In this document: one piece after another, positions 4,590 to 30,338 of the stretch
How the letters are laid out: each line of letters begins with the position of its first letter
Numbering within the stretch: position 1 is the stretch's first letter
DNA from: Nitrospirota bacterium
GTDB lineage: Bacteria > Nitrospirota > Nitrospiria > SBBL01 > JAADHI01
Length of the DNA stretch: 35,673 bases
NCBI GenBank assembly: GCA_029261155.1
Contig: JAJDBW010000020.1
Location: 1-35,673, forward strand
Direction of reading: 5' to 3'
Position numbers and translations under genes: made by a program
Notes under the pieces: generated by a model
Told to the model about the DNA's origin: nothing
What the model saw: only the letters and a program-made list of their open reading frames with translations
Database searches by the model: none

Positions 4590-4709
4590 GCGCTTGCTCC
4601 TCTGTTGGCCGTTCTCTGCACGGCACTGGTTGGGCAAGTTTATCACTTAACGGACTGTCCGAATTTCCAGCGCCACCTCTCTTTACACTGGGAACGGTTA
4701 GGAGGCAGG

Positions 4710-12499: not shown

Positions 12500-12503
12500 G
12501 AAA

Positions 12504-12768: not shown

Positions 12769-12864
12769 AATGTCCATAAGTTATTGAGAATTATTATCTT
12801 TTCAGCCCTAAAACGTTTTAAAACAATATAAAACATCTTTAAAACGGATTTTGGTTGTTGATAA
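12769..12864 (+). other. Candidate oriV opening region: phased TAAAAC repeats and DnaA box
   Basis: Right after the iterons the DNA becomes AT-rich. TAAAAC recurs at 12809, 12819, 12829 and 12840, a spacing of about 10 bp, one helical turn. This looks like the repeated AT-rich mers where an iteron origin melts. A TTATCAACA-type DnaA box (on the minus strand, 12856-12864) follows, one mismatch from TTATCCACA. TTATGGACA at 12771-12779 is a weaker match. Confidence 0.6.
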
Positions 12865-14740: not shown

Positions 14741-15400
14741 ATGCTATACCCCTTCATCATGGATAAGAAAAAGGCCAATCCAAAGACAAAAAAACTCCTA
14801 AAACTCTCTGCCTCCGGCATCAAGATTCGGCTGCTTTCAGCCGATCGCGCCTTTTTGCGCGACCTTTCCCGTCTTCAAGTTTTGTCCGATAAACTCGCGA
14901 ACGAGAATCACTATAAGCATTTAAAAGGGGGGTCGGCCCGGCCTTTGGGGCGGCTTGAACAGGCGGGGTTGATACAGAAAAAGAAACTGTTTATTCCAGG
15001 GTGCGGCATGAGAAACCTGTATCAGTTTTCAAACCCAAAAATAGCGGCGGCCTGGGGCGGAAAATTGCCGGAGATCGGGGCGAAGCGCAATGCGCTTCAC
15101 GAATTGATCACCTCGGATCTTTATTATCAATCGGGGAGGCCGGAAGATTTTCGGCTGGCGAATCGCATGACCGAGGAAGAAATCACCACCTTTGGCGGAC
15201 ATCGGCCGGACGCTATTTTTACCGATTCAGAGACGGGGGAAGCCGTCGCCGTAGAAGCCGATAGTGGACACTATAGCCAACAACAAATCAGAACAAAGCT
15301 TTCAAAATGGCAGGGCCGCAAACAGGTTTGGGGTCAACCCCGATCTGTTTCCGCCCATGTACCGCAAGGGCCAGAGATCATACTTCATATTATCGAATAA
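14741..15400 (+). CDS. Replic_Relax / MOBC-like relaxase candidate (219 aa)
   Basis: The N-terminal half (about residues 30-100) looks like a winged helix: FLRDLSRLQVLSDKLAN, a positively charged turn, RPLGRLEQAGLIQ. The C-terminal half matches the order of the Replic_Relax family (PF13814): H-E-L-x-x-x-D-L-Y-Y near residue 124, then HRPDAIF, and AVAVEADSG followed by R-x-KLSKW. D of RPDAIF, E of VEAD and K of the last helix are candidate metal-site residues of a restriction-like nuclease fold. In MOBC relaxases such as CloDF13 MobC this fold, not an HUH domain, nicks oriT. The start may be 14741 or 14759. No HUH relaxase is seen elsewhere in the window, and the gene opens the transfer block. 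Confidence 0.7.
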   Translation: MLYPFIMDKKKANPKTKKLLKLSASGIKIRLLSADRAFLRDLSRLQVLSDKLANENHYKHLKGGSARPLGRLEQAGLIQKKKLFIPGCGMRNLYQFSNPKIAAAWGGKLPEIGAKRNALHELITSDLYYQSGRPEDFRLANRMTEEEITTFGGHRPDAIFTDSETGEAVAVEADSGHYSQQQIRTKLSKWQGRKQVWGQPRSVSAHVPQGPEIILHIIE

Positions 15401-15429
15401 TTTCTTTAAATAAGAAGAAAGGGGGCCTC

Positions 15430-16233
15430 TTGGATCTTAAAGAGAGAATCAAAAAAGCACGAGAGAAAGCGGGAAGCACATCGGATGAGTCTATCCCGAC
15501 AAGTCCTTTAGGTGTGGTCGCGGACAAAAGTGCGTTTATTATTCCGATTGATCAAATCGAAGTCAGGGATCAAGCCCGAAAAACCTTTAGTAACCTGGAG
15601 GAATTGGGCGACTCAATCCGCAGAGAGGGTCAGTTACAAGCCATCGTCGTCCGAAAATTACCCACAGGAAAATACCTGCTGATTGATGGTGAACGCCGTC
15701 TGAGGGCAATACGTGATGTTTTAAGATACAAAACCCTCCGCGCAAGTTTGCAGGAGGGTGAATTGGAGCCGCTGAAAATCCGGGTCACGCAACTGAGCGC
15801 CAACCAGCAAAGAGAGGGGTATCCGCCTTTAGAGCTTGCCAAAGAGCTTGCCGATTTAAAAAAAGACACCGGGTACAGCGATGAAAAGCTGGGTACTCTG
15901 ATCGGGGTCAGCGCCTCATGGGTCTGTAAGTATCGGAACCTTCACGCCGCAAGCCCGGAAATTAAAGCCAGAATCGCAAAAGGGTCCCTCACCCTCGCGT
16001 CATTTTTTAACAACAGAAAAATGATTCTTCAAAGTAGAGCCCGTGATGTTTTTATCCGTATTGAGAAACCCGAAGCCCTGCAAATCGCCAAATTGTTACA
16101 AGAAATTTGTGAAGCAAGCGATCGTTTGGCCCCGATCAAGATCACCAAAAAAGAGACAAAAGTAGAGCTTTCTAAAATCTTGAGCGACAGAACCACTGAA
16201 GTGTTGGCTTACCTGATGGATAAAAATTCATGA
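15430..16233 (+). CDS. ParB/Spo0J-family protein (267 aa)
   Basis: The family's N-terminal domain is evident: IPIDQIEVRDQARKTF, then L-x-x-SIRREGQLQAIVV and the GERRLRA CTP/phosphate-contact motif. After it comes a helix-turn-helix, KLGTLIGVSASWVCKYRNLH, with ALTLASFF-like spacer and a helical C-terminus. The start is TTG at 15430, which has AAGAAAGGGGGC just upstream; the longer frame from 15307 overlaps the relaxase gene and is not needed. Unlike usual partition operons, no parA is next to it. It lies among transfer genes, so it may aid segregation after transfer or regulate the tra region. A ParA-RHH pair already serves rep at 10.6 kb. Confidence 0.85.
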   Translation: MDLKERIKKAREKAGSTSDESIPTSPLGVVADKSAFIIPIDQIEVRDQARKTFSNLEELGDSIRREGQLQAIVVRKLPTGKYLLIDGERRLRAIRDVLRYKTLRASLQEGELEPLKIRVTQLSANQQREGYPPLELAKELADLKKDTGYSDEKLGTLIGVSASWVCKYRNLHAASPEIKARIAKGSLTLASFFNNRKMILQSRARDVFIRIEKPEALQIAKLLQEICEASDRLAPIKITKKETKVELSKILSDRTTEVLAYLMDKNS

Positions 16234-16883
16234 TGCCCGGTTCATTGTCTCCCGCCGAACGGGTGATTTTAGATCATCTTAAACGTCTGGGGTATGCCAC
16301 ACAAAGTCAGCTTGAATATTGGGGGAAATATAGTCAAACGGCGATGAGTCTTGCTTTGTCTTCTTTGTGCGCGAGGAAGTTTGTTCGGGTGGAGAAAAAA
16401 GTACGTCCCAATATTTGGAATCTGACTTGGGCGGGTGCGCGTGTGGTGGATAAGCCATTGCCTTGGAGTTTAAGAAAACCGTCGTGGTCCGTCATGGCCC
16501 ACATTGTTCGTCGCAATCAATGCGAAATGCTTTTGAGAGAGACCCACGCGGATTTTCGGTTTTTAGACAAACCCGCTTTATTTCGTATCGGTCTTAATCC
16601 CTCACATGGGGAACATGCGGGGGGTCAGGAGGGAAAGATCGTTTTTGTGCTTCTGGACGACTATCTCATGGGATCGAATCGTATTAGCACCACGCTTTCA
16701 AGGCGGCACCGTTTGAATGAAAAATACTGTGATTTCAAGAACACTGTGACATGGAGCATGATTTTCAAGCGGTTTATCGTCGCAAGCACCCATGAAAAAC
16801 AGATTGAACGACATGAGCGTTTTCTTCACCGTAAAGGGCTTCAAGCCGAATTGCTCTATGTGCCGCCCATTTGGGCTTATTAA
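16230..16883 (+). CDS. Winged-helix protein, Replic_Relax-like (217 aa)
   Basis: Its first 70 residues (LSPAERVILDHLKRLGYATQ, then LALSSLCARKFVRVEKK) form a winged-helix pattern of the type found in replication-relaxation proteins. The middle (HIVRRNQCEMLLRETH, ALFRIGLNPSHGEHAG, KIVFVLLDDYLMGSNRISTT) resembles the nuclease half of that family. The candidate metal-binding order is less clear than in the 14741 gene, since only D-D after the hydrophobic strand is evident. It may be an inactive paralogue that binds oriT or helps the relaxase. Its ATG overlaps the ParB stop (ATGATG), and the coupling protein follows 16 bases on, so all are one operon. Confidence 0.6.
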   Translation: MMPGSLSPAERVILDHLKRLGYATQSQLEYWGKYSQTAMSLALSSLCARKFVRVEKKVRPNIWNLTWAGARVVDKPLPWSLRKPSWSVMAHIVRRNQCEMLLRETHADFRFLDKPALFRIGLNPSHGEHAGGQEGKIVFVLLDDYLMGSNRISTTLSRRHRLNEKYCDFKNTVTWSMIFKRFIVASTHEKQIERHERFLHRKGLQAELLYVPPIWAY

Positions 16884-16899
16884 CAAAGGGAGACTTGAG

Positions 16900-18519
16900 A
16901 TGAAAGCCATGAAGGTGATGTTGATGCTGATTGTTTCAGTGCTTGTTCTGGATGCTTTTGTCGCCAAATATTTTTTCAATCTGTCTTGGACCTTGCCCGG
17001 AGTCAGCCTCGCGCTATTTATCGTTTCTTTGGTCTTCATTCGGCCTCGTAAAATGAAAAACTCTTCCGTTCAAGGCTGGGTCCTGGGCGAAGCCCTTGAG
17101 TTGAGTGACCCCAATCATCCCGTCCTGGTGAAAAACGCGATGATTAGCAAAAAGGCGCTGAACCTGGGCGTGATTGCTATGGGCGCACAAGGCACGGGAA
17201 AAACCGAGTCCGTCATTTTAGGGCAATCAAAAGCCATCAAGGGCTATTCACCCCATTCGGGTTTTGCCCTTTTTGACGGGAAGGGGGATATCGACACTTA
17301 TAAGAAATTTGTCGCCATGGGAGAGAAACCCGATTACTTTTTCTCCTCAGAGCTTCCCGGTTCAGATTCCATCAACCTGTTTGTCGGCGAAACATCGGAT
17401 GTGATTGACCGCTTAACCACCTTGTTGATCGGAGAAACCACGAGCACCACCTTTTATGCCGACGATCAACGGGCCGTGCTTGCACGGCTTTTGCCGCTCT
17501 TTTTGAACCTGAACCTGCCCGTGAACTTAAAAGACCTTTATGTGGGCCTCACGGTGCCTGCGGCGGGCCGGGACCTTTTAAAAGCCTCCCGGGCCCTGAA
17601 CCTCGATCCTTCTGTCATTCAGTTTGCTGAGGCTTGGTTTGATCTCCCGAGCAAAACCCGGATGAAGAATATCTCCGGCTTACTCAATCGCCTGATTGTT
17701 TTTATTACCGGGCCCCATGCGGATCGCCTTAATTGTTATGCGCCGGATATCGATTTTTCCCAAATGATTGAAAAAGGGCAGACCTTTTACGCCCATTTAC
17801 CCTTGACCGCCTTTTCCAGGGATGTCGCAATCGCCATTATCAATATGTTTGAAGTGGAAGCGCGAAAACGCCAACTGGCCGGAACGGAAGGGCTTGATGT
17901 TTATCCGCTCTTTTTTGATGATTGGAGCGGATTTTTTCATGAGGGCTTTGCGCCTTTTTCGGCGCGGTGCCGCTCCGCCGAAATGCCCTTGTCGTTTGGT
18001 TTTCAATCTAAAGCCCATCTGGATGCCGTCAGCCATACCTTTTTGAACGCCTTGGACGATACCGTGGCCACCAAGATCATTATGCGAACGCAAGGCGGCG
18101 CGACCGCTAAATATGTACAGCAGATGTTATGTGAATTTGAAACCCCGGAAATCACACAATCCGATTCCGTTGTGAGAGGCGAAACCCTGTCCATGCGGAA
18201 AGAATATCGTATCGATCCAAGACAACTGAGAGAGCTGAATCCGGGAGAAGCTTATATTTCAACCTTGCAGGAAGAGGAGGGTGAGACAAAAAATCCCCTT
18301 TGGAAGGTTCAGCTTCAGCGGCCGGATTTTACGGGCTGGCAGAAGATATTGTTGCCGTCCGCAAAGACACATGAGATGGGTCACGGATTGAACTTCTGGG
18401 AAAAATACATGGCCGGGGCCGATATGAAGAGTTTGGAAATCCGGATTAAAGAGGTATTGGAACAAGATAAAGGATTGAAAGAGGCGGGTTATACAGACGA
18501 GGAGGATCAACCATGCTGA
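16900..18519 (+). CDS. Type IV coupling protein, VirD4/TraD-type ATPase (539 aa)
   Basis: Inner-membrane ATPase that hands the relaxase-DNA complex to the secretion channel. Two N-terminal transmembrane segments (about residues 5-20 and 30-46) are followed by the Walker A motif GAQGTGKTES (about 95-104), FALFDGKGD, and a Walker B strand PLFFDDW at about 336-342. The start at 16900 has AAAGGGAGA just upstream; the frame's earlier ATGs overlap the previous gene and add no conserved residues. The length is near typical for VirD4. Its stop overlaps the next gene by 7 bases. Placement upstream of the pilin and VirB genes supports the role. Confidence 0.9.
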   Translation: MKAMKVMLMLIVSVLVLDAFVAKYFFNLSWTLPGVSLALFIVSLVFIRPRKMKNSSVQGWVLGEALELSDPNHPVLVKNAMISKKALNLGVIAMGAQGTGKTESVILGQSKAIKGYSPHSGFALFDGKGDIDTYKKFVAMGEKPDYFFSSELPGSDSINLFVGETSDVIDRLTTLLIGETTSTTFYADDQRAVLARLLPLFLNLNLPVNLKDLYVGLTVPAAGRDLLKASRALNLDPSVIQFAEAWFDLPSKTRMKNISGLLNRLIVFITGPHADRLNCYAPDIDFSQMIEKGQTFYAHLPLTAFSRDVAIAIINMFEVEARKRQLAGTEGLDVYPLFFDDWSGFFHEGFAPFSARCRSAEMPLSFGFQSKAHLDAVSHTFLNALDDTVATKIIMRTQGGATAKYVQQMLCEFETPEITQSDSVVRGETLSMRKEYRIDPRQLRELNPGEAYISTLQEEEGETKNPLWKVQLQRPDFTGWQKILLPSAKTHEMGHGLNFWEKYMAGADMKSLEIRIKEVLEQDKGLKEAGYTDEEDQPC

Positions 18520-18869
18520 CCTGGATACGATTCTGGCCGGTGTTTGTCGGGCCGGTTCTGCTTTTAAATGGTTTGGGTTTTTTACCCACCCTCTTTGAAG
18601 GGGGCCGATATTGGGGCGGAGGGCCGATACGTCAATGGATGTTAAATACCCTGCTCATTCCAATATTGAGTGTCAGTCAGACTGAGCAGATTGTGCAGTG
18701 GTTTAACGAAGCCAGCGTTCTTCAGGAATGCGTGATGTACAGCCTTTTGATTTTGAATCTGGACATCGTCTTGATGCCGGTATTTTTGGGCATTGGAACC
18801 GGCATTATGAAGGTCCTGAACTGGATTACGGTGAAGGATCTGGCATTAAAAAGACAAGCGGTCAGGTAG
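18513..18869 (+). CDS. Small membrane protein of the transfer operon (118 aa)
   Basis: No family recognised. It has two or three hydrophobic helices: residues 5-25 (IRFWPVFVGPVLLLNGLGF), a possible middle helix around 40-60, and 76-105 (MYSLLILNLDIVLMPVFLGI). A basic tail, VKDLALKRQAVR, probably faces the cytoplasm. It overlaps the coupling protein gene by 7 bases, so it is translated with it, and precedes the pilin. It may be a coupling-protein partner or an inner-membrane assembly factor; this is from position only. Confidence 0.75.
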   Translation: MLTWIRFWPVFVGPVLLLNGLGFLPTLFEGGRYWGGGPIRQWMLNTLLIPILSVSQTEQIVQWFNEASVLQECVMYSLLILNLDIVLMPVFLGIGTGIMKVLNWITVKDLALKRQAVR

Positions 18870-18897
18870 GCAAAATTTAACTTGATTATTTAAATAA

Positions 18898-18915
18898 ATC
18901 TTGGTATACCAAGAT
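18898..18915. promoter_or_regulatory. 18-bp perfect palindrome upstream of the pilin operon
   Basis: ATCTTGGTATACCAAGAT is a perfect palindrome in the 65-bp gap between 18869 and 18935, 20 bases before the pilin start and directly before the GGAGAG ribosome site. Its size and position suggest a dimeric repressor operator controlling pilus genes. No other copy was noticed in the window. Confidence 0.5.
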
Positions 18916-18934
18916 ATATAAAGGAGAGTATAAA

Positions 18935-19285
18935 ATGAAAAAATATATCTTCTCAATTATTTTTGCGGTTCAGATTTTATTGACGGCGGTGGCTGTGCCG
19001 ATTTCAATGCCAAGCCTGCAAGGGGAGGCCTATGCCCAGTTTCCCAGTTTTATGAGTGGCAGTGAATCCAAAATTGTAAGCACGGTGAACAAAAAGGGAA
19101 AAAGCACTCTAGGCATTCTGTCGCTTGTTGGCATTCTGGTCTGTGCCGGGTCCATCATCTTTGGATGCATTAAAATGGCGTCAAATAATGCACAAGGCGC
19201 AAAGGGCTATCTCATCGGGTCCGGGGCCGCGCTAATCATCATTGCGCTGGTTTATAGTGTGGTGGTCTTTTATGGAAAGCTTTAG
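18935..19285 (+). CDS. VirB2-like major pilin candidate (116 aa)
   Basis: The signal peptide ends in EAYA-QFPS (cleavage after about A34). The mature protein is about 80 residues with two hydrophobic helices, at about 58-80 (TLGILSLVGILVCAGSIIFG) and 92-112 (LIGSGAALIIIALVYSVVVF), and a short basic loop (KMASNNAQGAKG) between them. That is the VirB2/TraA pilin plan. GGAGAG stands 9 bases before the ATG. It is the first gene after the palindrome, followed by a second pilin-like gene and VirB3. Confidence 0.8.
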   Translation: MKKYIFSIIFAVQILLTAVAVPISMPSLQGEAYAQFPSFMSGSESKIVSTVNKKGKSTLGILSLVGILVCAGSIIFGCIKMASNNAQGAKGYLIGSGAALIIIALVYSVVVFYGKL

Positions 19286-19577
19286 CCGGAAGACATTGCC
19301 GGCGATTAAAACCTATCCCCTTTGGGTGGGTCTTCTTTTGCTTTCATCGAGTCCACCGGCCTGGGGAGGAGGCATTGAAGCCGCTCAAAAATCCCTCACG
19401 GTGCCGATCAGTCTTATTACCATTGTCGCGGCGGCGGCTGGGATTATTAAAGGCGCCATACAACTGCGTAAAGGTTTTGATTCCGAAGGCATTGCGACCA
19501 TCCAGGGATCCTGTATTTGTCTCTTCGTTGTGGCGGCTTTGTACTTGATTGTGAGTTTTGTCAGCGGGGGGTTTTAG
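19272..19577 (+). CDS. Second VirB2-like pilin candidate (101 aa)
   Basis: The ATG at 19272 lies inside the end of the first pilin gene (14 bases overlap); the upstream in-frame ATG at 19242 adds only overlap. A signal peptide of the type WVGLLLLSSSPPAWG ends near residue 32. Then come two hydrophobic helices (SLITIVAAAAGIIKGAIQL and CICLFVVAALYLIVSFV) with a polar loop. It has the same plan as the preceding gene but little sequence identity. Two pilin-like genes in tandem could be a major and minor subunit. The stop TAG overlaps the GTG start of the next gene by one base. Confidence 0.75.
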   Translation: MESFSRKTLPAIKTYPLWVGLLLLSSSPPAWGGGIEAAQKSLTVPISLITIVAAAAGIIKGAIQLRKGFDSEGIATIQGSCICLFVVAALYLIVSFVSGGF

Positions 19578-19849
19578 TGCCTGCCTTTAACAGCCGCTTC
19601 AAGCTTAAAAAAATCGGGCATGTCCCGGTCTATTCCTTTGCCGGGTTTTTTGGAATCCTGATCAGCGTGCCTTTAATCCTTGTCCTGCCTTCGCCATTAA
19701 AATTACTGCCGCTGGCCCTCTTTTTTTTCTGTTTGTTTGTGACCGTTTTTTATATCCGGGTCGGGGACGAACTGCCTTTTTTGCCTGTCAAACGGGCCAG
19801 CAAGCGGGAGAGAAACCGCGTCACGGCTGAAACCTGGACGGATGCCTAG
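19577..19849 (+). CDS. VirB3-like inner-membrane protein (90 aa)
   Basis: It starts at GTG 19577, directly at the previous stop. The protein has a short polar start (VPAFNSRFKLKKIGHVPVYS), two adjacent hydrophobic stretches (FAGFFGILISVPLILVL and LLPLALFFFCLFVTVFYI) and a charged tail. This matches VirB3/TraL in size and layout; the family has little conserved sequence. The neighbouring order of pilin, this gene and VirB4 is the normal VirB2-B3-B4 order, which is the main support. Confidence 0.8.
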   Translation: MPAFNSRFKLKKIGHVPVYSFAGFFGILISVPLILVLPSPLKLLPLALFFFCLFVTVFYIRVGDELPFLPVKRASKRERNRVTAETWTDA

Positions 19850-22228
19850 ATGCTGACCAAACGCAAACAATACCCCGATTTGTATACCTGGAGTCATGCG
19901 ATAGGGGAGACGATCCTTGCCCACCAGGACGGGGCCGTATCGGCCTATATTGGTTGGGCGGGGATCAATTTTGAGATGCGTCCGGCCCATGACCGCGACA
20001 TGGCGTCACTCAAGCTTCTTGCGGTACTGAACACCATTGAACCCGGCTATTGTGCCGAATTTCACCTCTGGCGTGATTGGGACGACAGATTGGCTGAAGA
20101 CTATCGGGACCGGGAAATGCCGCGCCCCAGCCCTTTAGCCAAAGCCACCCGGAACGCCCTGGCCGATCATCTGGCCAATTACGGCATGTCCAATGAGGTG
20201 GGCGTGGTGTTGTTAAAAGAGCCGCCGCGTTCAACCTTTGGCGGGGCAAAAAACTATATAAAACGGCTCAGCCGTTCGGCTAAGGAATTGCTGGAGGCGG
20301 CCCCCCGGTTTGCCTCAAAGTTACCGGGCGGAAGCATGAGACCTGTACAGCAGTATTATGACCGGATTCGGCAGAGCGGGGACCGCGCGCGATTTAATAA
20401 AGGGTACCGTTATCGGCATGACCCCAAGTATCTCCTGACGGAAGGGATCTTAACCGAAGCCCCATCGAATAAAGTTTCCGATCATGTTTTGATCGGCGGG
20501 GCGCACAGCAAGGTGCTCTATCTTTATTTTTACCCGGACAGCTTCGCCGGTTGGTTTTTGTTCTTATCGTCCTTAAGCATTCCGCTGCATGTTTCTTTTT
20601 CGATCAAACCGACCGACCGAAACGCCAGCATAAAAGAGGCCGAAGATCAAAGTCAGTTTGCGGAAGGCACCGCGAGTCAACGCGGGAGAGAAGAGCAAAA
20701 CACCAAGTTAGAGGATCTTTCCGACTTCAGAAACTACGTCGTTCGGAATAAACTGCCGGTGTTTCAAAACTGTTTTGTGATCCATTTACATGGTTCTCCC
20801 GAACAAAACCATGAGGCCGAAGTCCTGATTTCGGAACGCATTGAAGATGAAGAGGGCGGTCAAATCCGCTCACAAGAGACGATACAGCTTCCTTTCTGGC
20901 GGACAGGACAGCCGGGACAGGGCTATCGGAACCTGCTTTGGCGGGCCGATGAAGGGATGCAGGTCGCCAACATGCTGCCCGTGCAGGTCTTTGATCCGGG
21001 AGAAAAACACCCGGAGTCCTTGCGTCTAGGCGAACGCGGCCAACTCATCGGGTTTAACCGTTTGGCCGGGAAAATCGCACACAGCTTTACGGTGGCTAAA
21101 ACCGGGAGCGGTAAAGGCCAAGATAAAACCGTTACCATTGCCGAAAGTTTTCCAATGGGCATGGACTGGTGCATCGCCGAAATCGGATCGTGTTATAAGT
21201 GGACGGTCGAAGGTTTTGGCGGCACCTATACCCGGATCGATCCCAGAGAGACCGTCGTCAATCCTCTGCCGCTCTACAAGCTGGCCGATCACAAAGCGGA
21301 CCTACCCTTGCATCCCGATATCATTGGTCCGACCCTGGGGGCTTTGGGGTTTTTACTGATAGATGGGCGTTTGACTAATGGCAAACTGGAGCTGACCGTT
21401 CATGAAGAGGCGGCGGCGCAAACGGCACTCCAAATGCTTTATGTTGGCCTGAATCATCATTATGCCGCCCCCACACTCCCGGATCTTCATCGACAACTGG
21501 AAATTTTTGATGCACAGAGCAAGGAGCAAAAAGCGGCGGCGTCCTTGATGGAAAAGAATCTCTATTCTTTTCTCTCCACGACCGAAGGACAAATCTTTTC
21601 CCAACAAACCAATCTGGTATTGAGCGATCACATTACCGGGGTGGATTTAATCGATGTGGAAAAAGCCAGTCCGAAGCTTTTAAAATTCTATCTGATTTTT
21701 ATTGCCTTGCAGTTCGATCATTTTGCCTTTGCCAACCCCACACCGACCACCATCCTCTTGGACGAAATGCACAAATTCATGCGGGTGGCCCCGAAGGAAA
21801 TCGGGCGGCTGATTTCAGAGCTTGCCCGCATGGGCCGAAAAAATGCGGGCAACATCGATATGGTCACACAGGGCACGACGGAAATAGATGCCATTGAAAA
21901 AGAAGTGCTGAACTCCATGCACTTTGGCAGTCTCATGTACCGGAATGCGGAATGGGAGGAGATTGCCCAACGGGTGTCCATGCCGGAAGTTCCATTGGAC
22001 ATCTGGCGAAACTTTCCTGATCCCATAGATTTTAACTGGCGGCCTTCAATTCAATCCGTGGGTAAAAAATACCATAACCTTCATCTGACTTTTCCCGACC
22101 TTTTGCTGGATCTGGGAAACTCGGATGCAAACGATCTTGTGGTTAAAGACCGGATTGGGAAAACCACGAAAGATCCACTGGAACGTCTGCGGATCTTTCG
22201 ACACTATAAAGAGGGGAGAGCCATTTGA
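19850..22228 (+). CDS. VirB4/TraC-type conjugation ATPase (792 aa)
   Basis: Cytoplasmic-side hexameric ATPase powering pilus assembly and substrate transfer. The Walker A motif is AKTGSGKGQDKT at about residues 416-427 (with Gly after the lysine, where S/T is usual). The Walker B strand TTILLDEMHKFM lies at about 632-643, with LARMGRKNAG and TQGTTEIDAIE after it, as in the family. The N-terminal 340 residues make the VirB3-interacting and oligomerisation part. The size is normal. The ATG is immediately after the VirB3 stop. The last codons overlap the VirB5-like gene by four bases. This is the clearest marker of the type IV secretion operon. Confidence 0.93.
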   Translation: MLTKRKQYPDLYTWSHAIGETILAHQDGAVSAYIGWAGINFEMRPAHDRDMASLKLLAVLNTIEPGYCAEFHLWRDWDDRLAEDYRDREMPRPSPLAKATRNALADHLANYGMSNEVGVVLLKEPPRSTFGGAKNYIKRLSRSAKELLEAAPRFASKLPGGSMRPVQQYYDRIRQSGDRARFNKGYRYRHDPKYLLTEGILTEAPSNKVSDHVLIGGAHSKVLYLYFYPDSFAGWFLFLSSLSIPLHVSFSIKPTDRNASIKEAEDQSQFAEGTASQRGREEQNTKLEDLSDFRNYVVRNKLPVFQNCFVIHLHGSPEQNHEAEVLISERIEDEEGGQIRSQETIQLPFWRTGQPGQGYRNLLWRADEGMQVANMLPVQVFDPGEKHPESLRLGERGQLIGFNRLAGKIAHSFTVAKTGSGKGQDKTVTIAESFPMGMDWCIAEIGSCYKWTVEGFGGTYTRIDPRETVVNPLPLYKLADHKADLPLHPDIIGPTLGALGFLLIDGRLTNGKLELTVHEEAAAQTALQMLYVGLNHHYAAPTLPDLHRQLEIFDAQSKEQKAAASLMEKNLYSFLSTTEGQIFSQQTNLVLSDHITGVDLIDVEKASPKLLKFYLIFIALQFDHFAFANPTPTTILLDEMHKFMRVAPKEIGRLISELARMGRKNAGNIDMVTQGTTEIDAIEKEVLNSMHFGSLMYRNAEWEEIAQRVSMPEVPLDIWRNFPDPIDFNWRPSIQSVGKKYHNLHLTFPDLLLDLGNSDANDLVVKDRIGKTTKDPLERLRIFRHYKEGRAI

Positions 22229-22890
22229 AGAAGTTCAGTCTTTTAATCGGAATGCTGCTGTTGTTTTCTGTGGTGACGCCGCTTCCAAAGGCTTCAGCCC
22301 TAATGGTCACGGACGTCACCGCCAACAAAACCCTGTTGGCGGCTTACGCAAAGATGACGGCCATATTTACAAAATTATCCGCCATGTATACCGTGGGCAA
22401 AGCGCATCTGGAATCCGCCGTCGAGATGGAAAACATGATTTCGGATGCCCACTCGACCTATCAAACCCTTTCAAACTTAGACCTTAAAGAACTCGCGGAG
22501 GACTTTAAGTCGGGGGATGTGCTTGAAGGTGCCGGGTCTTTTGGCACCCTGGGCGCGATTCAGGATGAAGTGGACAGTAAGGTGTCCACGGGCGGATCGA
22601 CCGTCGACTTTGGGGTTTCGCAGAAAAACCGGATTCAGAATCTCCAAAGATTGGGAAAACTGAAAATGGCGTCGGTTGAAAACATGGGCAAGGCATCGAC
22701 GGATTTAAAAGAAAGGGACTCAAGCCAAATCACGGCGCAGTCCACGGCAACTCTTGCGATGCTGGCATCGATTGAGCAACGCGAAAAGGAACAAAAAGCC
22801 CTTGAAGCCGAGAAAGCTGAAAAAGCAGGTCAAAAAACAGAGTCACATATGGGTAGTATTTACGGTTTGATGGGGTCTGCAAAACAATGA
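22225..22890 (+). CDS. VirB5-like pilus-associated protein (221 aa)
   Basis: The TTG start overlaps the VirB4 stop (TTTGA) and has GAGGGGAG just upstream. A signal peptide, MKKFSLLIGMLLLFS to PKASA (about 25 residues), is followed by a long helical domain rich in A, K, E and Q, with two helix groups: 30-75 and 120-200. That is the VirB5/TrbJ three-helix plan, secreted to the periplasm and found at the pilus tip. Sequence similarity is weak in this family, so the call uses location and composition. The stop overlaps the next gene by four bases. Confidence 0.75.
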   Translation: MKKFSLLIGMLLLFSVVTPLPKASALMVTDVTANKTLLAAYAKMTAIFTKLSAMYTVGKAHLESAVEMENMISDAHSTYQTLSNLDLKELAEDFKSGDVLEGAGSFGTLGAIQDEVDSKVSTGGSTVDFGVSQKNRIQNLQRLGKLKMASVENMGKASTDLKERDSSQITAQSTATLAMLASIEQREKEQKALEAEKAEKAGQKTESHMGSIYGLMGSAKQ

Positions 22891-24182
22891 AGTTTCTGGA
22901 ATTACTCGTTGCATCATTAAATCCCTATGGGGTGTATCAATCCAGCCAAAACATGGCGACCAACGTCTTTTTGTTTTTAACCCCGTTTTTATTGGTCATT
23001 GCGGTTGCGATTCGGACCCTTGAAACGCAATTGGATACGGTCAGCGGTGTGGGAAAATGGGAAAAGGCGATCCGTGATTTTATCCTCTTCGGGTTTCTCA
23101 TCGGCTCCTATTTCGGGGTGATGACCCTTCTGAATCTTTTTATGAATGAAGTCTATCTGCTCACCAATGATTTTGGAAATTATCAAACCTTGTCAAAAAA
23201 ACTTGAAACTCTGATGGATATCAGTCTGGGGCTAAAACAAACCGATGCGGAGTGGCTCACCAAACTCAAAGGATTGGACACGACGCCGCATGGCCTGGTC
23301 ATTTTCCTGATCTACCGGGTTTCGAATATCTTTGTGGTGACGACTTATGTTTTTTTACAGGCCGCTCATGCGCTGAGCTATTCTTTTGCCCTGATTATGG
23401 GATTGATTGTCTTGCCGATGGCCATCACACAAAAATTAAATGTCTTAAAGGGCTGGGGGCTTGTGCTGGGTACGGCGTTTTTGTGGCCGATTGTGGAAAG
23501 TCTTTTTATGGGCCTTACGGGGGATATGTTTATTAAAGCCGTGCAAGCCATGCTGGATGAACAAGCGAAGCTGGGGCTGGGACTGGAAGACAAGGCGGAA
23601 ATCCGGGCTTTTTTTGCCACCGTTAATTTTGTGCTGGGCATGATAATGATTACAGCCCCCATCGTGACCGGCGCGGTGCTCGCAGGAGGCAATGCCATGT
23701 TCCCGATGGTAGCGCCATTTGCGGCAGGCTCTATGGCCCTTGCGGGGACTGCATTAGCAAGCGGACGGTCGATTATGCGCGGCGGCGGGGCCACTTTGAG
23801 CGCAGCGGGTGCGCTTGGAGGCATGATGGGTTTGACAAAGGGGGGTGCCGGATTGAGCGGTTCACTTCCCGGCGGAGGCTCCGGTCCTTCGTCTTACGGT
23901 GGCGGACCTCAATCCCGTGGCGGCGGTGGATCAAGTGGATCTTCGGGGGGTTCGTCCGGGGCGTCGTCGGGCGGCTCGTCGCGTGCTTCGTCCGGGCCCT
24001 TGCCGGGCGGGGCTTCGGGAACAACGGCGGCTCAGGCGATATCAGGCGGGGGAGAGGAAAGTCACCTCGGTCCGAAAAGCGAAGAAGCCAGAGAAGCGGA
24101 ACAGCGGGCGGCGGAGAAGAAACGAAAAAAGGGCAGAACCGGCCATTTTGTAAATTTAAATAGCAAAAAGAAGGCGACATAA
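22887..24182 (+). CDS. VirB6/TrbL-like polytopic membrane protein (431 aa)
   Basis: Six or so hydrophobic helices span residues 20-300 (for example VFLFLTPFLLVIAVAIRTL and ILFGFLIGSYFGVMTLLNLF). A central periplasmic loop is at about 90-135. The final hydrophobic stretch is followed by a Gly/Ser-rich region (about 310-390; GGGGSSGSSGGSSGASSGGS) and a basic tail. This is the channel component of type IV systems. The Gly/Ser tail is long and repetitive, a DNA segment that probably slips in replication. The start overlaps the VirB5 stop; a 12-base gap separates it from VirB8. Confidence 0.85.
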   Translation: MKFLELLVASLNPYGVYQSSQNMATNVFLFLTPFLLVIAVAIRTLETQLDTVSGVGKWEKAIRDFILFGFLIGSYFGVMTLLNLFMNEVYLLTNDFGNYQTLSKKLETLMDISLGLKQTDAEWLTKLKGLDTTPHGLVIFLIYRVSNIFVVTTYVFLQAAHALSYSFALIMGLIVLPMAITQKLNVLKGWGLVLGTAFLWPIVESLFMGLTGDMFIKAVQAMLDEQAKLGLGLEDKAEIRAFFATVNFVLGMIMITAPIVTGAVLAGGNAMFPMVAPFAAGSMALAGTALASGRSIMRGGGATLSAAGALGGMMGLTKGGAGLSGSLPGGGSGPSSYGGGPQSRGGGGSSGSSGGSSGASSGGSSRASSGPLPGGASGTTAAQAISGGGEESHLGPKSEEAREAEQRAAEKKRKKGRTGHFVNLNSKKKAT

Positions 24183-24194
24183 GGACTTTATTTT

Positions 24195-24923
24195 ATGAAT
24201 GTAATAGATGAAAATACTGTCAATTCTGATCTTTTGAAAGAAAAAGAGAATGAGGAAGCAGAAAAGAATGGGGAAGAGGTGTTTCCTGCATCCCCCCTTA
24301 AAAGCGAAAAAGCGGTTCGATCCGAAGACCAACGGCAGGCGGAGTCTTTCATTAAAAAGCTGCAAAGATTCGCTATTCTGGGATGGTTTCTTTTTTTTAT
24401 CGTCTTTGCGGTCCTGCTTGCGTCGTATTTTCTGGGCGTGGTTCTTCCCAAACCGCTCCTGGTCGTAGACAGTGAAGGCCGGGTCATGGGTCAGATTGAT
24501 TTTTTAGAACCCGTCAAACGTCTGGACGCAGAAATCATTACAGGGGGCATGCGCTTTTTAGATTTTTATCTTTCCTTGAACAGCGAGACCATTTTTGATG
24601 ATTATACGATTGCCACCGGCATGATGGGCCCTGATCTATTGGAAGAAAGTAAACGCCTGATTTCGGAGGATGGCTATCTTCAAAAAATCGCAATTGCGAA
24701 GTCCCGTTCACACATTGCATTTGATCAGGAGGAACATCCCCCTGAAATCATTAGCAGGGGTGAACAGGAAACCGCTGTGCGCTATCAGGGGGTTTTGACG
24801 ATGTTTCAAGAAAATAACGCCCCCGTTCAGAATCCCTTTAACATCACCCTGTTTATGAAGATTCATCCGAGTACATCGCTCAGGAGGTCCGGCATTGAAA
24901 TTACTGCCCTACACGATAATTAG
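24195..24923 (+). CDS. VirB8-like assembly factor (242 aa)
   Basis: Bitopic inner-membrane protein. A charged cytoplasmic part (residues 1-58) leads to one transmembrane helix at about 60-85 (ILGWFLFFIVFAVLLASYFL), then a periplasmic domain with FLEPVKRLDAEII, YTIATGMMGPDLLEESKR and the strands QETAVRYQGVLTMF and FNITLFMKIHP. The order matches VirB8/TraE, which links the core complex to the inner-membrane ring. The last 29 bases overlap the VirB9-like gene in another frame. Confidence 0.8.
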   Translation: MNVIDENTVNSDLLKEKENEEAEKNGEEVFPASPLKSEKAVRSEDQRQAESFIKKLQRFAILGWFLFFIVFAVLLASYFLGVVLPKPLLVVDSEGRVMGQIDFLEPVKRLDAEIITGGMRFLDFYLSLNSETIFDDYTIATGMMGPDLLEESKRLISEDGYLQKIAIAKSRSHIAFDQEEHPPEIISRGEQETAVRYQGVLTMFQENNAPVQNPFNITLFMKIHPSTSLRRSGIEITALHDN

Positions 24924-25812
24924 TTTACTGTTTTGTTTTGGATCGGTGTTGAAGGTCTCGGCCAAACCGCAGACCAAAAGGGTGACGCTCAAACGGGTGA
25001 CGCATTTGACCGTGGATATTCTGCCGGACATGGGCAGTCATTTCATCTTTCCGTTTGTGCTGGATGAAAATGACAGTACGATCCCCTTTACCAATGTTTC
25101 GACCAATAAACTGTTCAAGACCGAGCGGTCCAAAAACCGAAATACCTTTGTGGTCTCGATTGACGGGGATCAAGTGCCGGAAGAATATCGGGGGAGGGCG
25201 CTACCGCAATATTATGGCAACCTCTTTCTCGTGGCCGGGGATTACAACATTACTGTTGAGCTTCGGACCACCAACGACCTTGAGAAACATTTTACTGAAT
25301 ATATCTTTGAACTGGGCGATCTGGAAGAAGAACTCTTGCTTCAAAAAATGGTTCAAAACCGGCTGGCCCTGCTTGAAAAGGATTTTCAAAAACGTCTGGC
25401 TGAGATTGACGACCTTGCGGAAGACAAGGTGATTACAAAGCTTGGGGAACTGGCCGCACAGCCTCCGATCGTCAAAAACATCAAAGAAGAACAGGAACTT
25501 CAATCAGACGACGGACCGATTGTGCTGTATGTAGACCGGGCCTTGCAGTATGGGCGGTTTGTGTCCTATGTCTATCAGATTGAAAACCGGACAAACAAAG
25601 CCCTGAGTGTTACGGGCATTCAAGTGCTTCAGAACAATGAGGAAGGCGGCACCCCATCGCGTATTCACTCGGTGCAGGACATGCCCCCGCGTTTAATGGT
25701 GGACCAGATCTTTAACGGTGTGGTGTCGATGAATCGAAGGCATGTCGATCCTGAAAATCTCATCACACTGCGCATCACAACGAACAAGGGAGATGTGAAC
25801 GCGACATGGTAA
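24895..25812 (+). CDS. VirB9/TraK-like outer core protein (305 aa)
   Basis: The TTG start (24895) has CAGGAGG 7 bases upstream and overlaps VirB8 by 29 bases. A signal peptide runs to SAKPQ (about residue 23). Residues 30-130 are strand-rich (HLTVDILPDMGSHFIFPFVL, NTFVVSIDGD, YYGNLFLVAGDYNITVELR), a VirB9/TraK type N-terminal domain. After a helical linker (130-210), residues 212-300 form the second strand-rich part (LYVDRALQYGRFVSYVYQIE). It would form the outer-membrane core with VirB10. Family similarity is by layout and gene order. Confidence 0.8.
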   Translation: MKLLPYTIISLLFCFGSVLKVSAKPQTKRVTLKRVTHLTVDILPDMGSHFIFPFVLDENDSTIPFTNVSTNKLFKTERSKNRNTFVVSIDGDQVPEEYRGRALPQYYGNLFLVAGDYNITVELRTTNDLEKHFTEYIFELGDLEEELLLQKMVQNRLALLEKDFQKRLAEIDDLAEDKVITKLGELAAQPPIVKNIKEEQELQSDDGPIVLYVDRALQYGRFVSYVYQIENRTNKALSVTGIQVLQNNEEGGTPSRIHSVQDMPPRLMVDQIFNGVVSMNRRHVDPENLITLRITTNKGDVNATW

Positions 25813-26792
25813 GGCTGATGCTCATCCTTGTGCTGCTTTTCCCCGTCTCGAGTCATGCCTTGAGCAAGGCCGAATTGCACGAATTGAATAATATCTACCT
25901 TGAAAAACAAGCCGAGCGGGAACGAAATTTAAACACGAATGACCTGAACCGCCTGCTTCCAAAACCCGATGAAAAAACACCCTTAAAAAAAGAAGCCCCG
26001 CGTCCTGAAAAAACAGAAGTCCCTCAAGAGGACAGAAAAACAGAGACCCCAAAAACAAAGGAAGCGGACAAATATACAGCAGAAAAAGACAAGGAAGTGA
26101 ATCGGTCTCAAAACAAAGGCGAGCCGGTTCGTAAGGGACAGAACGGTGAGCCTTTAAAGGCAGGTTCCGTTCCCCCCCGGATCTTTGAAGAGGGAAAAGA
26201 CGGGATCTATATTGCCCCGCCCCGTATCGGCGGTTATGAGCCGCTTGTCGATGCGGTTGAACCCGACAAAAGGCGGGTGTTTGGAATCCGTATTGGCACT
26301 TGGATTCAAGCGGAACTCCGACGACCGGCGAGCAGTTCAGAGCCGGGATTAATCGAGATCTATACCACCGAGACGATTCGGGGCGATAGAAAGGCACTGC
26401 CTTCAGGCACCACCTTATTTGCCCAAAAAAACTATAACGCCGGCACGAAAAAACAGGATTTCCTCGTCGAAAAAGGCATCACACCGCAAGGAAAAGAATT
26501 TGAAATGAAGGGACTGGTGTTTGACCTGAATCAAGCAGCGGGGCTGATCGGCCATATCTCGGCGGATTCCCAGATGATTGTCGAACGATCCACCTCCAAA
26601 GGGGTGTTGGCCGCCGGGGGAGCCGTGGCTGAAAGTCTGGCTCAGAATTCTCTTGTGGGGGCGGCAGGCTCAGCGGCGGCAGAATCCTTGTTAGAGGACA
26701 GTTCCGGGGCCGTGGAACGTTCCAAGACCTTGAAACAAACCATTCTGTCCCAACCCCAAAAATTATTGATTCGGATTGAGGAGACCTTTTGA
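25806..26792 (+). CDS. VirB10/TrbI-like core complex protein (328 aa)
   Basis: Core protein bridging both membranes. After a hydrophobic start (MVRLMLILVLLFPVSSHA) comes a 100-residue Lys/Glu/Pro-rich flexible part, typical of the periplasmic stretch. The C-terminal domain (about 170-328) has the VirB10 pattern I-x-I-x-T-W-I-x-A-x-L, GLIEIYTTETI, LPSGTTLFAQ, KGLVFDL, and a Gly/Ala/Ser segment near 265-300 that may form the outer-membrane helix. Oddly, the N-terminus looks like a cleavable signal peptide rather than a cytoplasmic tail plus anchor. It overlaps VirB9 by 7 bases. Confidence 0.8.
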   Translation: MVRLMLILVLLFPVSSHALSKAELHELNNIYLEKQAERERNLNTNDLNRLLPKPDEKTPLKKEAPRPEKTEVPQEDRKTETPKTKEADKYTAEKDKEVNRSQNKGEPVRKGQNGEPLKAGSVPPRIFEEGKDGIYIAPPRIGGYEPLVDAVEPDKRRVFGIRIGTWIQAELRRPASSSEPGLIEIYTTETIRGDRKALPSGTTLFAQKNYNAGTKKQDFLVEKGITPQGKEFEMKGLVFDLNQAAGLIGHISADSQMIVERSTSKGVLAAGGAVAESLAQNSLVGAAGSAAAESLLEDSSGAVERSKTLKQTILSQPQKLLIRIEETF

Positions 26793-27367
26793 AAAAGAAA
26801 ACCCTTTTGATTCTTTTAGTGATTGTCATGATTCCGAGTGTTTCTTTTGCGCGGGATCGAAAGTGGAAGGCGGGTTTGATGATGGGGCCTTCTGTGATTT
26901 TGGTAGATGATCCGGCGGGGAGTACAGAAATAGAAACCTCTTTGAGCTTTCTAAATGGGATTGTAACCCTGCCAGCCAGACGAGACACCCGGATTTTTAT
27001 TCATCTTTTTTATGAAGATTTTAATCTGAATAATACAGGCAATAAGGTGTCTGGCAGTATCAAAAGCTTAGGGCTGAATACCTCTTACCAATGGCGGTAT
27101 CGGCATTCAAGATCATGGAAACCCTGGTTTGGGGTGGGTTTGGGGTTTTCGCAGGACGAATTTAAAAGCCGGGCTTTGTTGGATTCAGGGGGCTTCATTG
27201 TTCAGGATTTACCGGATCGAGAAGACAATGCAATCAATTTATTACTGAATGCCAGTACGCAATTAAAACAATGGTGGATGCTCGATTTTGGGGTACACGG
27301 TCAGATTGACATCCCCATCTCAGGAGACATCACGCGGTTTATGATTTTAGGAACGATTCTCTATTAA
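26789..27367 (+). CDS. Outer-membrane beta-barrel-like protein (192 aa)
   Basis: It begins with TTG (26789), overlapping the VirB10 stop, with GGAG 8 bases upstream. A signal peptide to SFA-RDRKW (about residue 21) precedes alternating strands: KAGLMMGPSVILV, TRIFIHLFYEDFNL, SLGLNTSYQWRYRHS, PWFGVGLGFSQ, MLDFGVHGQIDIP and a final aromatic strand ending in ILY. An aromatic C-terminal residue and this strand length fit an eight-strand barrel, of the OmpW/OmpX kind. Its place at the end of the transfer operon is unusual for VirB systems; it may help pore or surface assembly. Confidence 0.7.
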   Translation: MKKKTLLILLVIVMIPSVSFARDRKWKAGLMMGPSVILVDDPAGSTEIETSLSFLNGIVTLPARRDTRIFIHLFYEDFNLNNTGNKVSGSIKSLGLNTSYQWRYRHSRSWKPWFGVGLGFSQDEFKSRALLDSGGFIVQDLPDREDNAINLLLNASTQLKQWWMLDFGVHGQIDIPISGDITRFMILGTILY

Positions 27368-27395
27368 CCCTACTGTAAGCATTAAAGGATACCCA

Positions 27396-30338
27396 ATGTT
27401 TAGGAAAATAACCGGATTATTGATCGCGCTTTCAATCGGACTCGTTTCTTGCGCCGATAATGGGGGCGCACCGCAACGGCGCGCGGGGGCGGAAGTGGAA
27501 GGCTTTGCCGTCGATGCCCAAATCGTAACGGGGGAGGTCGTCGTCTATTCCTTTTTAAATGGGGTAAAAGGGGCGGGTTTGGGCAGCGCCTTAACGGATG
27601 ATCGCGGGTTCTACAGCATTCTCCTTCAAGCCCCGGATCAACCGATTCTTATTGAGATTGAAAACGGGTCTTATACAGAAGAGGCCAGCGGCAAAAGTGT
27701 GTTTATGAAGGCGGGTCAAGTCCTTCGGGCGCTGACCTTCTACGAATCGGGAATCCCTGTCAATTCAATGGTGACGCCCTTTACCCACTTGGCGGCGGGT
27801 TTGGCCGAATACCGCATCTCGCAAGGGACAGCGGTAGCAACGGCAATTACCGAGGCGAGCAGCGCGATCTCCGCGATGACCGGGATCGATATTTTAACGA
27901 CAGAGCCCCACAATATCACCGATCCGGGAAACGCCAGTACCATTATTACCGACGAGTTGGTGTATGGGTTTTGGGCGGCTGGCATTTCAAGCTGGACCGC
28001 CGAGGCCAGCGGGAAAAATGGGAATGACCCGCACGATATCTGGACCTCTATCGCTTTTTCGCAAGTCATGTATCGGGACATCCGGGAAGACGGACTGCTC
28101 GACGGAAAAGGGATCGATCCCGAGAGCCAGGCGGTCATTGAACTTGGATTCGGTTTGGTCCCGATCGGTCCCAATACTTATCGAACGGAATTGTCTCGTC
28201 ATATGCTGGCCATGGTGGGGCATGAAGCCAATCAATCGGGTATTCGCTTCGATCAAATTCTAAGCAAAGCGGAGGGATTGTCGAGTATGACGCACGCCAT
28301 TTTCGGGGAGACGCCACCTATCCCCTTGGACACGGAAGGGCCGCTTATCGTGCCCTCCGAGCCGGAAGGTCTGTTCCATAACGGGACCCTCGACTTTTCC
28401 GTGACCGTCAGCGATGCCGTCGGTTTGGGCTCGGTTCATTTCGATCTGGATGGAACGGGGATCGGCCAAGCCTTCGATCCGAATCATCCCTCGATTTTAA
28501 TCAACACCCTGCTGTATTCGGATGGTGCGCATCTCATCGGGGTGAGGGCCATCGATAACCTCGCGAATGAAAGCTATCGGCAATTGGCGATCCAATTCTC
28601 CAACAGTGGATCCAGCGTGAATGTCTTGTCTCCGCATTTCGTCAACAGTTCTCCTACGACCCTATCAGGCAGCTATATCGACAATGGGACAGGGGTGAAA
28701 TCTATTATGGTGCAAGGGGTCCCGGCGGATATCGATCAGGAAAATAAAACCTGGAGTGTCACAATTCCGATCATCCCGCCGAATCCCCAGCAAACCGCCG
28801 CCTTCGTGACAACGGTGCCCATCGATATCACTGATAATCTGGATATCGTCAAGAGCGAAAACGTCGTCTTGACGATGGATACGATTGCCCCGCTCTTTGA
28901 CCCGGCTCCAATTTATAGTAATGCAACATTTATTTCGGGGGGGCAGACGTTTACGCAAAAGCTTTCTTTTGCGGATAGTTCAGATATCCCGATCCGGATC
29001 GAGACGGATCATGTGTCCTTAAACGGCACGGCGGTTTTGGAAGGGCCGCTAAGAAATGCAGATATTCCCTATGTTGTACTTCATGTAGAAGATACAAATA
29101 TCAATGGGGTTTTTACGCCAGAGGATGAAATTACGGCTCAGATTCAGTATTCCTTAGATGGATCGATCTTATCGCCTTTGCATTCGCTGGGGCCGGTCAT
29201 TACCACAACCAATAATTTTCGCTTCATTGTGCCGCTTGTTTCCGAATTCCTGCATGCGGATTGGCATCAGGCGACACCGCTCCAAGAGCATAAAATCGAA
29301 GTCATCATTCGGGACCGGGCGGGGAATACCGCGAATTTCGATTTAGGGTTTTTTGTTGAATTCGCGCCGCCCGCGCCGGTAATCACCTCGAGGGCGATTA
29401 ATCCATTCAGTACGGCCTTTGCGAACCGGGCGCTGCTTTACGGTCAGGTGCTTCAGGTGAGCGAATATGCGATTACCAACCAATCGGATTTCGCCCTGCT
29501 TTTTTCTTTGAAGGATCTCTCGACGCACAGTGTGACGAATACCTTCGAGGACGCCATCCGCATTCATCAAGCGCAAAAGCTTCAGATAGAAAGCTGGCAG
29601 GCGCAATTTCGATTTAAAGTCTTAAATCCTCAGATCAATGGACAAGCTCAAAAAATTGAAAGTCCAAACGAACCCTGGTCTTCTATCTCCTCCTTATCGG
29701 TCAGTTTCGGCAATCAAAACACCCAAGTGATCTCGGTCCCGGCACCGATACAAGAGGGCGTCCACCCTTTATCTGCCGATCAACTGCCGTCTACGGTGAT
29801 GGGGTCATGGAATGCTTTTCATGTCTCCGGTGCCGATCTTTCCGATGTCAATTATTTTGGACCGCTTACAGGGAATGTCTTTATCGCTTCTTATGCTTAC
29901 GACAAACCCAAGGGGAACTATTTTCAAAGACGCGTGACGACCCTGTACCAATCCCTTGGCGGCCATCCATTCAACCAGATCAGCCAAGGACAAGAAAGCC
30001 AGACCTTTGCGACCGATCATTTTAAGGTCTTTAATACAGAGGGCGAGCGCAAGCTTTCCGTGAACGGTTTTTTCCGTCTCCCTTCAAAAGCCACTTATAC
30101 CATCGAAAAATTCATCACCACGCCCTCATTGAGCACCTACAACGATACGGAAGTCGGCAATGCGGCCGCCTTCGCGAGCTACACACCCAAAAAATATGAC
30201 AAAAGGATCGATTGGACCATTAACAATCAGCTTGAAGTCCAAGCCGTCCATGACACCGGCTTTGCACAAGCAGAAGACATGATCGCTTTGAATATTGTAG
30301 AAGGCTTAGGGATAAGCACCTACACCGTTTCACGCTGA
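27396..30338 (+). CDS. Large surface lipoprotein with Ig-like domains, end of the transfer operon (980 aa)
   Basis: The lipobox LVSC places the lipid anchor at C19. Residues 35-110 form a carboxypeptidase-regulatory-like strand domain (VEGFAVDAQIVTGEVVVYSF, DDRGFYSILLQAP). Residues 110-310 are helical (FTHLAAGLAEYRISQGTAVA). Residues 320-650 have Ig-like strands with markers such as LDFSVTVSDAVGLGSVHFDL, DLDGTGIGQAF, VNVLSP and DRAGN. The C-terminal third is strand-rich but not recognised. I infer a surface-displayed adhesin or mating-contact protein made with the conjugation machinery. RBS AAAGGA precedes the ATG; 28 bases separate it from the barrel gene. It is the largest gene in the window. 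Confidence 0.75.
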   Translation: MFRKITGLLIALSIGLVSCADNGGAPQRRAGAEVEGFAVDAQIVTGEVVVYSFLNGVKGAGLGSALTDDRGFYSILLQAPDQPILIEIENGSYTEEASGKSVFMKAGQVLRALTFYESGIPVNSMVTPFTHLAAGLAEYRISQGTAVATAITEASSAISAMTGIDILTTEPHNITDPGNASTIITDELVYGFWAAGISSWTAEASGKNGNDPHDIWTSIAFSQVMYRDIREDGLLDGKGIDPESQAVIELGFGLVPIGPNTYRTELSRHMLAMVGHEANQSGIRFDQILSKAEGLSSMTHAIFGETPPIPLDTEGPLIVPSEPEGLFHNGTLDFSVTVSDAVGLGSVHFDLDGTGIGQAFDPNHPSILINTLLYSDGAHLIGVRAIDNLANESYRQLAIQFSNSGSSVNVLSPHFVNSSPTTLSGSYIDNGTGVKSIMVQGVPADIDQENKTWSVTIPIIPPNPQQTAAFVTTVPIDITDNLDIVKSENVVLTMDTIAPLFDPAPIYSNATFISGGQTFTQKLSFADSSDIPIRIETDHVSLNGTAVLEGPLRNADIPYVVLHVEDTNINGVFTPEDEITAQIQYSLDGSILSPLHSLGPVITTTNNFRFIVPLVSEFLHADWHQATPLQEHKIEVIIRDRAGNTANFDLGFFVEFAPPAPVITSRAINPFSTAFANRALLYGQVLQVSEYAITNQSDFALLFSLKDLSTHSVTNTFEDAIRIHQAQKLQIESWQAQFRFKVLNPQINGQAQKIESPNEPWSSISSLSVSFGNQNTQVISVPAPIQEGVHPLSADQLPSTVMGSWNAFHVSGADLSDVNYFGPLTGNVFIASYAYDKPKGNYFQRRVTTLYQSLGGHPFNQISQGQESQTFATDHFKVFNTEGERKLSVNGFFRLPSKATYTIEKFITTPSLSTYNDTEVGNAAAFASYTPKKYDKRIDWTINNQLEVQAVHDTGFAQAEDMIALNIVEGLGISTYTVSR

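Follow-up and report, generated by a model that had tools for sequence, protein, structure and literature searches.

The stretch of DNA analysed here, referred to as the window, spans a complete contig, C12, with a length of 35,673 bp; it comes from a Nitrospirota metagenome-assembled genome (MAG; G000) and carries the genes of a putative type IV secretion system (T4SS). The contig is plasmid-like in that it encodes ParA (10597-11208) and a replication initiator (11510-12499; PF10134, E 2e-59) and contains iteron-like repeats (12501-12769). A terminal overlap was looked for and none was found, so circularity of the contig is not demonstrated. The T4SS genes form one colinear 16-kb block (14741-30338, all on the + strand) which is conserved in relatives by BLASTP, in the order Replic_Relax-like protein, ParB-like protein, winged-helix protein, coupling protein, 118-aa membrane protein, VirB2 to VirB10, a predicted outer-membrane barrel and a large lipoprotein. 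The original prediction described the operon from VirB2 onwards as a possible distinct mating-pair class with its own surface contact module, an overall reading that is partly supported by our analysis. The upstream part of the block (14741-18869) and the signal peptide of VirB10 had not been described.

The block was present on three further replicons, namely contig C13 of the same MAG, contig C21 of a genome from another genus of the same family (G003) and a complete circular plasmid of 106.9 kb in the gammaproteobacterium Ca. Tenderia electrophaga. A fifth copy, in OFTM211, is split: its contig breaks off within VirB10, and a partial lipoprotein that starts at the end of a different contig is consistent with the lost portion. 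The module therefore occurs on replicons of two phyla, and a distant counterpart was found in a third. A VirB4 of this type is carried by 3 of the 396 Nitrospirota genomes searched, all three in the same family. Scans of viral contigs with VirB4 (as a single sequence and as an alignment) and with the lipoprotein alignment gave no confirmed relatives.

The predicted operon order, B2-B2'-B3-B4-B5-B6-B8-B9-B10 followed by a barrel and a 980-aa lipoprotein, was borne out, with an open reading frame at every position given. The first gene (18935..19285) encodes a VirB2-like pilin candidate with a signal peptide and hydrophobic stretches, which has weak homologues at the equivalent position in three relatives. 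A second VirB2-like candidate, B2' (19272..19577), lacks a counterpart in Tenderia; two pilin candidates are found in the Nitrospirota copies only, and Tenderia has one. The VirB3-like protein (19577..19849) was named from its position ahead of VirB4 and shows 35-58% identity in relatives. The starts of B2' (ATG, 19272) and B3 (TTG, 19577) are probably correct as given here, because the homologues in relatives start there. Next come the VirB4/TraC-type ATPase (19850..22228; 48-91% identity in relatives), the VirB5-like protein (22225..22890), the VirB6-like polytopic membrane protein (22887..24182; placed by alignment), the VirB8-like protein (24195..24923), a VirB9/TraK-like protein with a signal peptide (24895..25812) and a protein that joins a signal peptide to a VirB10-like C-terminal domain (25806..26792). 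The operon ends with a 192-aa protein predicted to form an 8-stranded outer-membrane barrel (26789..27367), with a DDPAGST motif and a C-terminal aromatic residue, and the 980-aa outer-membrane lipoprotein (27396..30338).

Most of the names VirB2 to VirB10 are positional, and single-protein support from Pfam and NCBIfam is weak. From single sequences only VirB10 (TrbI, 33.2 bits against a cut-off of 35) and VirB4 (TraC-F-type model, 67 bits against a cut-off of 567) were recognisable, both under the curated cut-offs. When profiles were compared with about 50 reference and decoy proteins, the expected partner was obtained for VirB4, VirB5 (R388 VirB5, 36% probability by hhalign), VirB6, VirB8, VirB9 (weakly), VirB10 (weakly) and the coupling protein, which makes the VirB naming credible. 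The proteins by which a T4SS is generally recognised (VirB4, VirB6, VirB8-10 and a coupling protein) are thus all predicted in the block, with weak single-gene support and with positional and profile support that is consistent. Profile searches of the PDB with VirB4, VirB8, VirB9, VirB10, the lipoprotein and the barrel gave no meaningful matches.

The first gene of the upstream part of the block (14741..15400) encodes a Replic_Relax-like protein with a winged helix and, by eye, a PD-(D/E)xK-like motif (EADSGHY). Its match to PF13814 (E 0.0015, 19.1 bits) lies below the gathering cut-off of 25.3; the protein shows 40-81% identity in three relatives, and its family profile matches the Myxococcus and Thermus equivalents. 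The next gene encodes a ParB-like DNA-binding protein (15307..16233; ParB_N, E 9e-12) that is kept in all relatives and whose true start probably lies downstream, at about 15424. It is followed by a winged-helix protein (16230..16883; 41-62% identity in relatives, no curated family), possibly a second Replic_Relax-like protein. The coupling protein, a VirD4/TraD-like ATPase (16909..18519), matches DotL/IcmO in the PDB by profile (E 2e-5) and the Myxococcus coupling proteins by hhalign (90-95%), and the 118-aa membrane protein behind it (18513..18869) shows 35-59% identity in three relatives.

In the phylogenetic tree, the five VirB4 proteins formed one clade (100/100) apart from the VirB4s of F, R388, R64, pCF10 and Bacteroides. 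The stem of this clade measures 1.7 changes per site, and such long branches call for caution about deeper placement. This single clade on a long stem makes the earlier proposal of a distinct class a reasonable one. Tenderia VirB4 was nested within the Nitrospirota VirB4s (99/98), which suggests transfer between phyla.

The operon had been predicted to lack VirB1, VirB7 and VirB11, and indeed no SLT domain, small lipoprotein or T2SSE domain was found in it. VirB11 was not found in the window, nor T2SSE on C12 and C13. Nor was the proposal refuted by a VirB11 encoded elsewhere in all relatives: three complete plasmids (those of Tenderia and M. stipitatus, and MxC21-1) carry no VirB11-family ATPase. 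The MAG chromosomes encode several T2SSE ATPases, mostly of PilB/GspE size and some of 360-390 aa, and the T4SS may borrow one of these in place of VirB11. According to a review (PMC12857230), VirB11 is also missing from F, Gram-positive systems and ComB; its lack is by itself not new. No small lipoprotein that could be VirB7 is present in the operon, the sole + strand open reading frame with a lipobox at 16.7-30.7 kb being that of the 980-aa protein. The SLT domain of VirB1 was absent from C12, C13, the Tenderia plasmid and the M. stipitatus plasmid pYRE, and one was present on MxC21-1. VirB10 has, by eye, a cleavable-looking signal peptide in the window and in all four homologues, and neither a cytosolic tail nor an inner-membrane anchor; a term search of the same review did not turn up this variant.

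We compared the system with known mating-pair formation (MPF) classes. With MPF_F (F plasmid Tra) it shares a TraC-type VirB4, the lack of VirB11 and a weakly TraK-like VirB9, but it differs in its Vir gene order, its signal-peptide VirB10 and the lack of a TraI relaxase. F stabilises mating pairs by means of TraN, an outer-membrane protein of large size, whereas a lipoprotein/barrel pair is found here. The operon proteins scanned gave no Pfam or NCBIfam match to TraU, TraW, TrbC, TraN, TraF or TraH, and no hhalign match to F proteins. Plain MPF_F was rejected on gene content, the TraC match also being under its curated cut-off. A genome of the same genus carries a separate, typical F-type (MPF_F-like) transfer operon (G001:C30, L021). 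With MPF_T (R388, Agrobacterium VirB) the operon shares the order B2-B3-B4-B5-B6-B8-B9-B10 and a VirB5 resembling that of R388; it has the VirB gene order of this class but not its VirB11, it also lacks VirB7 and VirB1, and its VirB4 is not close to TrwK. MPF_B of Bacteroidota, which we take to combine a lack of VirB11 with the VirB2-B10 order and outer-membrane proteins at the operon end, was a further candidate, and pBF9343 has an OmpA-family gene at its operon end. However, VirB4, VirB8, VirB9 and the barrel had no specific match to pBF9343 proteins by hhalign, so MPF_B was not supported; no significant match to the TraG, TraK, TraM and TraN homologues of MPF_B was obtained either, with references that were single sequences and hence weak.

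A further likeness was found on two Myxococcus plasmids, pYRE (M. stipitatus) and MxC21-1, which were reached by a plasmid search with the Tenderia lipoprotein. Both carry a distant version of the system, also without VirB11, with VirB4, VirB6, VirB8, VirB10, a coupling protein and Replic_Relax, then a giant lipoprotein and then a barrel-like protein. Profiles built from the window families matched VirB4 (E 3e-14 and 1e-8), VirB8 (5e-7 and 4e-8) and the lipoprotein (2e-31 and 1e-39) on these plasmids, as well as VirB6 (1.5e-6) and Replic_Relax (8e-6) on one plasmid each; against F and R388 proteins the same profiles gave no comparable match. Among the references used for hhalign, the expected Myxococcus protein was the top pick for VirB4, VirB6 (66%), VirB8, VirB10 and the coupling protein, the match being weak for VirB10 (10.6% probability), as it also was for VirB9. 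Replic_Relax members above the PF13814 cut-off occur on both plasmids. The Myxococcus version differs in that its lipoprotein is about 1600 aa long, the outer-membrane-like protein lies 3' of it on both plasmids, and VirB10 follows a Ser/Thr kinase domain in one fused gene (L035:12462-14903, L036:17415-19790) and weakly matches TraM (PF12508). The outer-membrane-like protein of M. stipitatus has a DPAGS motif and is the best match of the barrel profile (61% probability). The reading frame of the MxC21-1 lipoprotein is broken into two parts. On this plasmid a DUF2381 protein is encoded ahead of the kinase-VirB10 gene, at the VirB9 position; myxobacterial pairs of a DUF2381 protein and a kinase may have their origin in VirB9-VirB10. 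The paper describing pYRE does not mention conjugation (PMC11237760).

The terminal pair proved to be a regular part of the system: barrel and lipoprotein are present in all four operons readable to their end and, in reversed order, on both Myxococcus plasmids, so the pair is not missing from related operons. Lipoprotein identity across the four loci is 34-55%, on a par with or above that of VirB9 and VirB10, and barrel identity in relatives is 28-65%. The barrel is confined to 2 of 98 related genomes, both with a complete T4SS, and lies in the operon in all three instances. Full-length lipoprotein is likewise restricted to T4SS genomes among relatives. A T4SS-specific lipoprotein family was rejected for the N-terminal domain, of which chromosomal copies exist, and kept for the full-length protein. 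The lipoprotein of the window comprises the lipobox (LVSC), a conserved N-terminal domain, an Ig-like (immunoglobulin-like) region, a hypervariable region and a conserved C-terminus. The lipobox reads LVSC|A, VSGC|Q, LISC|G and LVAC|G in the four close copies, and a lipobox Cys without Asp at +2 is what is predicted of an outer-membrane lipoprotein. Between Nitrospirota copies, identity is 58-64% over residues 21-660, 29-38% over residues 661-880, with indels in most pairs, and 42-58% over residues 881-980. A hypervariable patch with conserved flanks is as expected of a recipient-binding tip.

It is also conceivable, though unlikely in our view, that the pair is a structural part of the outer-membrane core, as a VirB7 replacement or pore ring, and not a recipient-binding module. 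Such a role would suit an operon without a VirB7 lipoprotein, a VirB10 whose missing inner-membrane anchor implies that the core must be built differently, and a pair conserved as well as VirB9 and VirB10. Yet the lipoprotein, with its Ig-like domains and a length of 980 to about 1600 aa, far exceeds known VirB7 proteins, and the hypervariable patch is more readily understood on a contact surface than in a ring subunit. More improbable still is a role of the pair in surface or entry exclusion, or in general adhesion (biofilm), by which it would merely share the operon. F TraT is a precedent for an outer-membrane lipoprotein with a part in surface exclusion, and on Burkholderia plasmids related N-terminal domains are encoded close to genes for type IV pili. 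The pair nevertheless stays close to VirB10 in three phyla although neighbouring genes are rearranged. The lipoproteins with the related N-terminal domain (L034:17800-18915 and L037:17800-18915) are 371 aa long; next to them lie type IV pilus genes on a plasmid in Burkholderia contaminans or, in Paraburkholderia, a gene with a TcpQ domain.

Relaxases were searched for with three Pfam models (PF03432, PF08751 and PF03389). None was found on the Tenderia plasmid, C12 or C13, and the Myxococcus plasmids gave no match to PF08751 and PF03389. PLSDB lists MOBP for the Tenderia plasmid; in a Pfam scan of 38 further proteins of this plasmid, no relaxase was among the matches listed (25 of 43 families). 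It may therefore be asked whether the T4SS has ceased to transfer the plasmid that carries it, being a relic or serving other cargo such as relaxase-bearing integrative elements or proteins. We hold this to be rather unlikely. Besides the missing relaxase, separate modules without VirB genes, each with a ribbon-helix-helix (RHH) protein, a coupling protein and a MOBF relaxase in a row, speak for it (G000:C45, L041; G003:C16, L042). Against this, several lineages have uninterrupted core genes that retain conserved residues, and every lineage has kept a Replic_Relax-like protein together with a dedicated coupling protein. The RHH-coupling protein-MOBF row of G003:C16 adjoins a tyrosine recombinase, and these modules could be mobilisable elements able to use the plasmid T4SS. 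Operons of VirB2, VirB3 and a TraC-type VirB4 are also found on Thermus and Allomeiothermus plasmids (L038, L039, L040) for which MOB-suite lists no relaxase. In L039 a pair of replication-relaxation proteins lies just upstream of the operon on the opposite strand, and L038 is also matched by the Replic_Relax profile; the association of Replic_Relax with T4SSs may be general.

Taken together, the reading we favour, and consider moderately likely, is that the window encodes a plasmid-borne putative conjugative T4SS of a divergent lineage with its own surface-contact module. In such a system, the Replic_Relax-like and ParB-like proteins would prepare plasmid DNA, which the coupling protein would hand to an inner-membrane channel powered by VirB4. 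VirB9 and the signal-peptide VirB10 would build the outer-membrane core, and VirB4, as in F, would do by itself the pilus work in which VirB11 has a share elsewhere. The lipoprotein would be tethered to the outer membrane, associate with the small barrel and project its Ig-like domains and the variable residues 661-880; this patch would bind the recipient, a task that other systems give to TraN or PilV. An adhesin encoded in the conjugation operon of pLS20 is needed for efficient mating (PMC8092201).

Several findings weigh against this reading. No relaxase was found on the plasmids with the models used, so that transfer competence is putative, and the C13 copy of VirB4 is frameshifted near its N-terminus, by decay or assembly error. 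The N-terminal domain of the lipoprotein (about residues 20-400) also occurs in chromosomal lipoproteins without a T4SS. The barrel prediction draws on a sub-threshold Pfam match (OMP_b-brl, E 0.02) and strand statistics (8-9 strand-like segments against 4-5 in shuffles, moderately significant), besides a signal peptide and the terminal aromatic residue in Nitrospirota copies. AlphaFold2 models from single sequences of the barrel and lipoprotein were unusable (pLDDT 30 and 32). The surface-contact role itself is suggested by the lipobox, the Ig-like domains and the hypervariable patch, together with the association of the pair with T4SS genes.

More speculatively, these plasmids of Nitrospirota, Gammaproteobacteria and Myxococcota might represent an extra mating-pair lineage, in which Replic_Relax-like winged-helix/nuclease proteins beside the coupling protein start transfer without a classical relaxase and the barrel-lipoprotein pair selects recipients by its variable tip; we put this forward only tentatively. 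Each oddity alone has precedents, and what appears to be new is their combination, the three-phylum spread and the invisibility to plasmid typing. A search of the open-access literature found no description of this system. MOB-suite, via PLSDB, gives no MPF type for the Tenderia plasmid, pYRE or MxC21-1, and plasmid typing labels these plasmids 'mobilizable' or 'non-mobilizable', so that the extent of gene transfer may be underestimated for whole phyla. The system also offers a test case of how a Gram-negative T4SS works when VirB11, the inner-membrane anchor of VirB10 and perhaps any known relaxase are missing, and a new candidate for recipient choice by conjugative plasmids.

Rfam and tRNA scans of the window gave no matches, and promoter and terminator scans gave signals at chance level. 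Two adjoining ankyrin-repeat-like proteins are encoded at 3324-5903, one of them with a 99-bp tandem repeat array and a lipobox-like N-terminus. A paralogous gene pair (313-876 and 8845-9735) is DUF932-like by eye, and DUF932 proteins are annotated on several of the plasmids compared.

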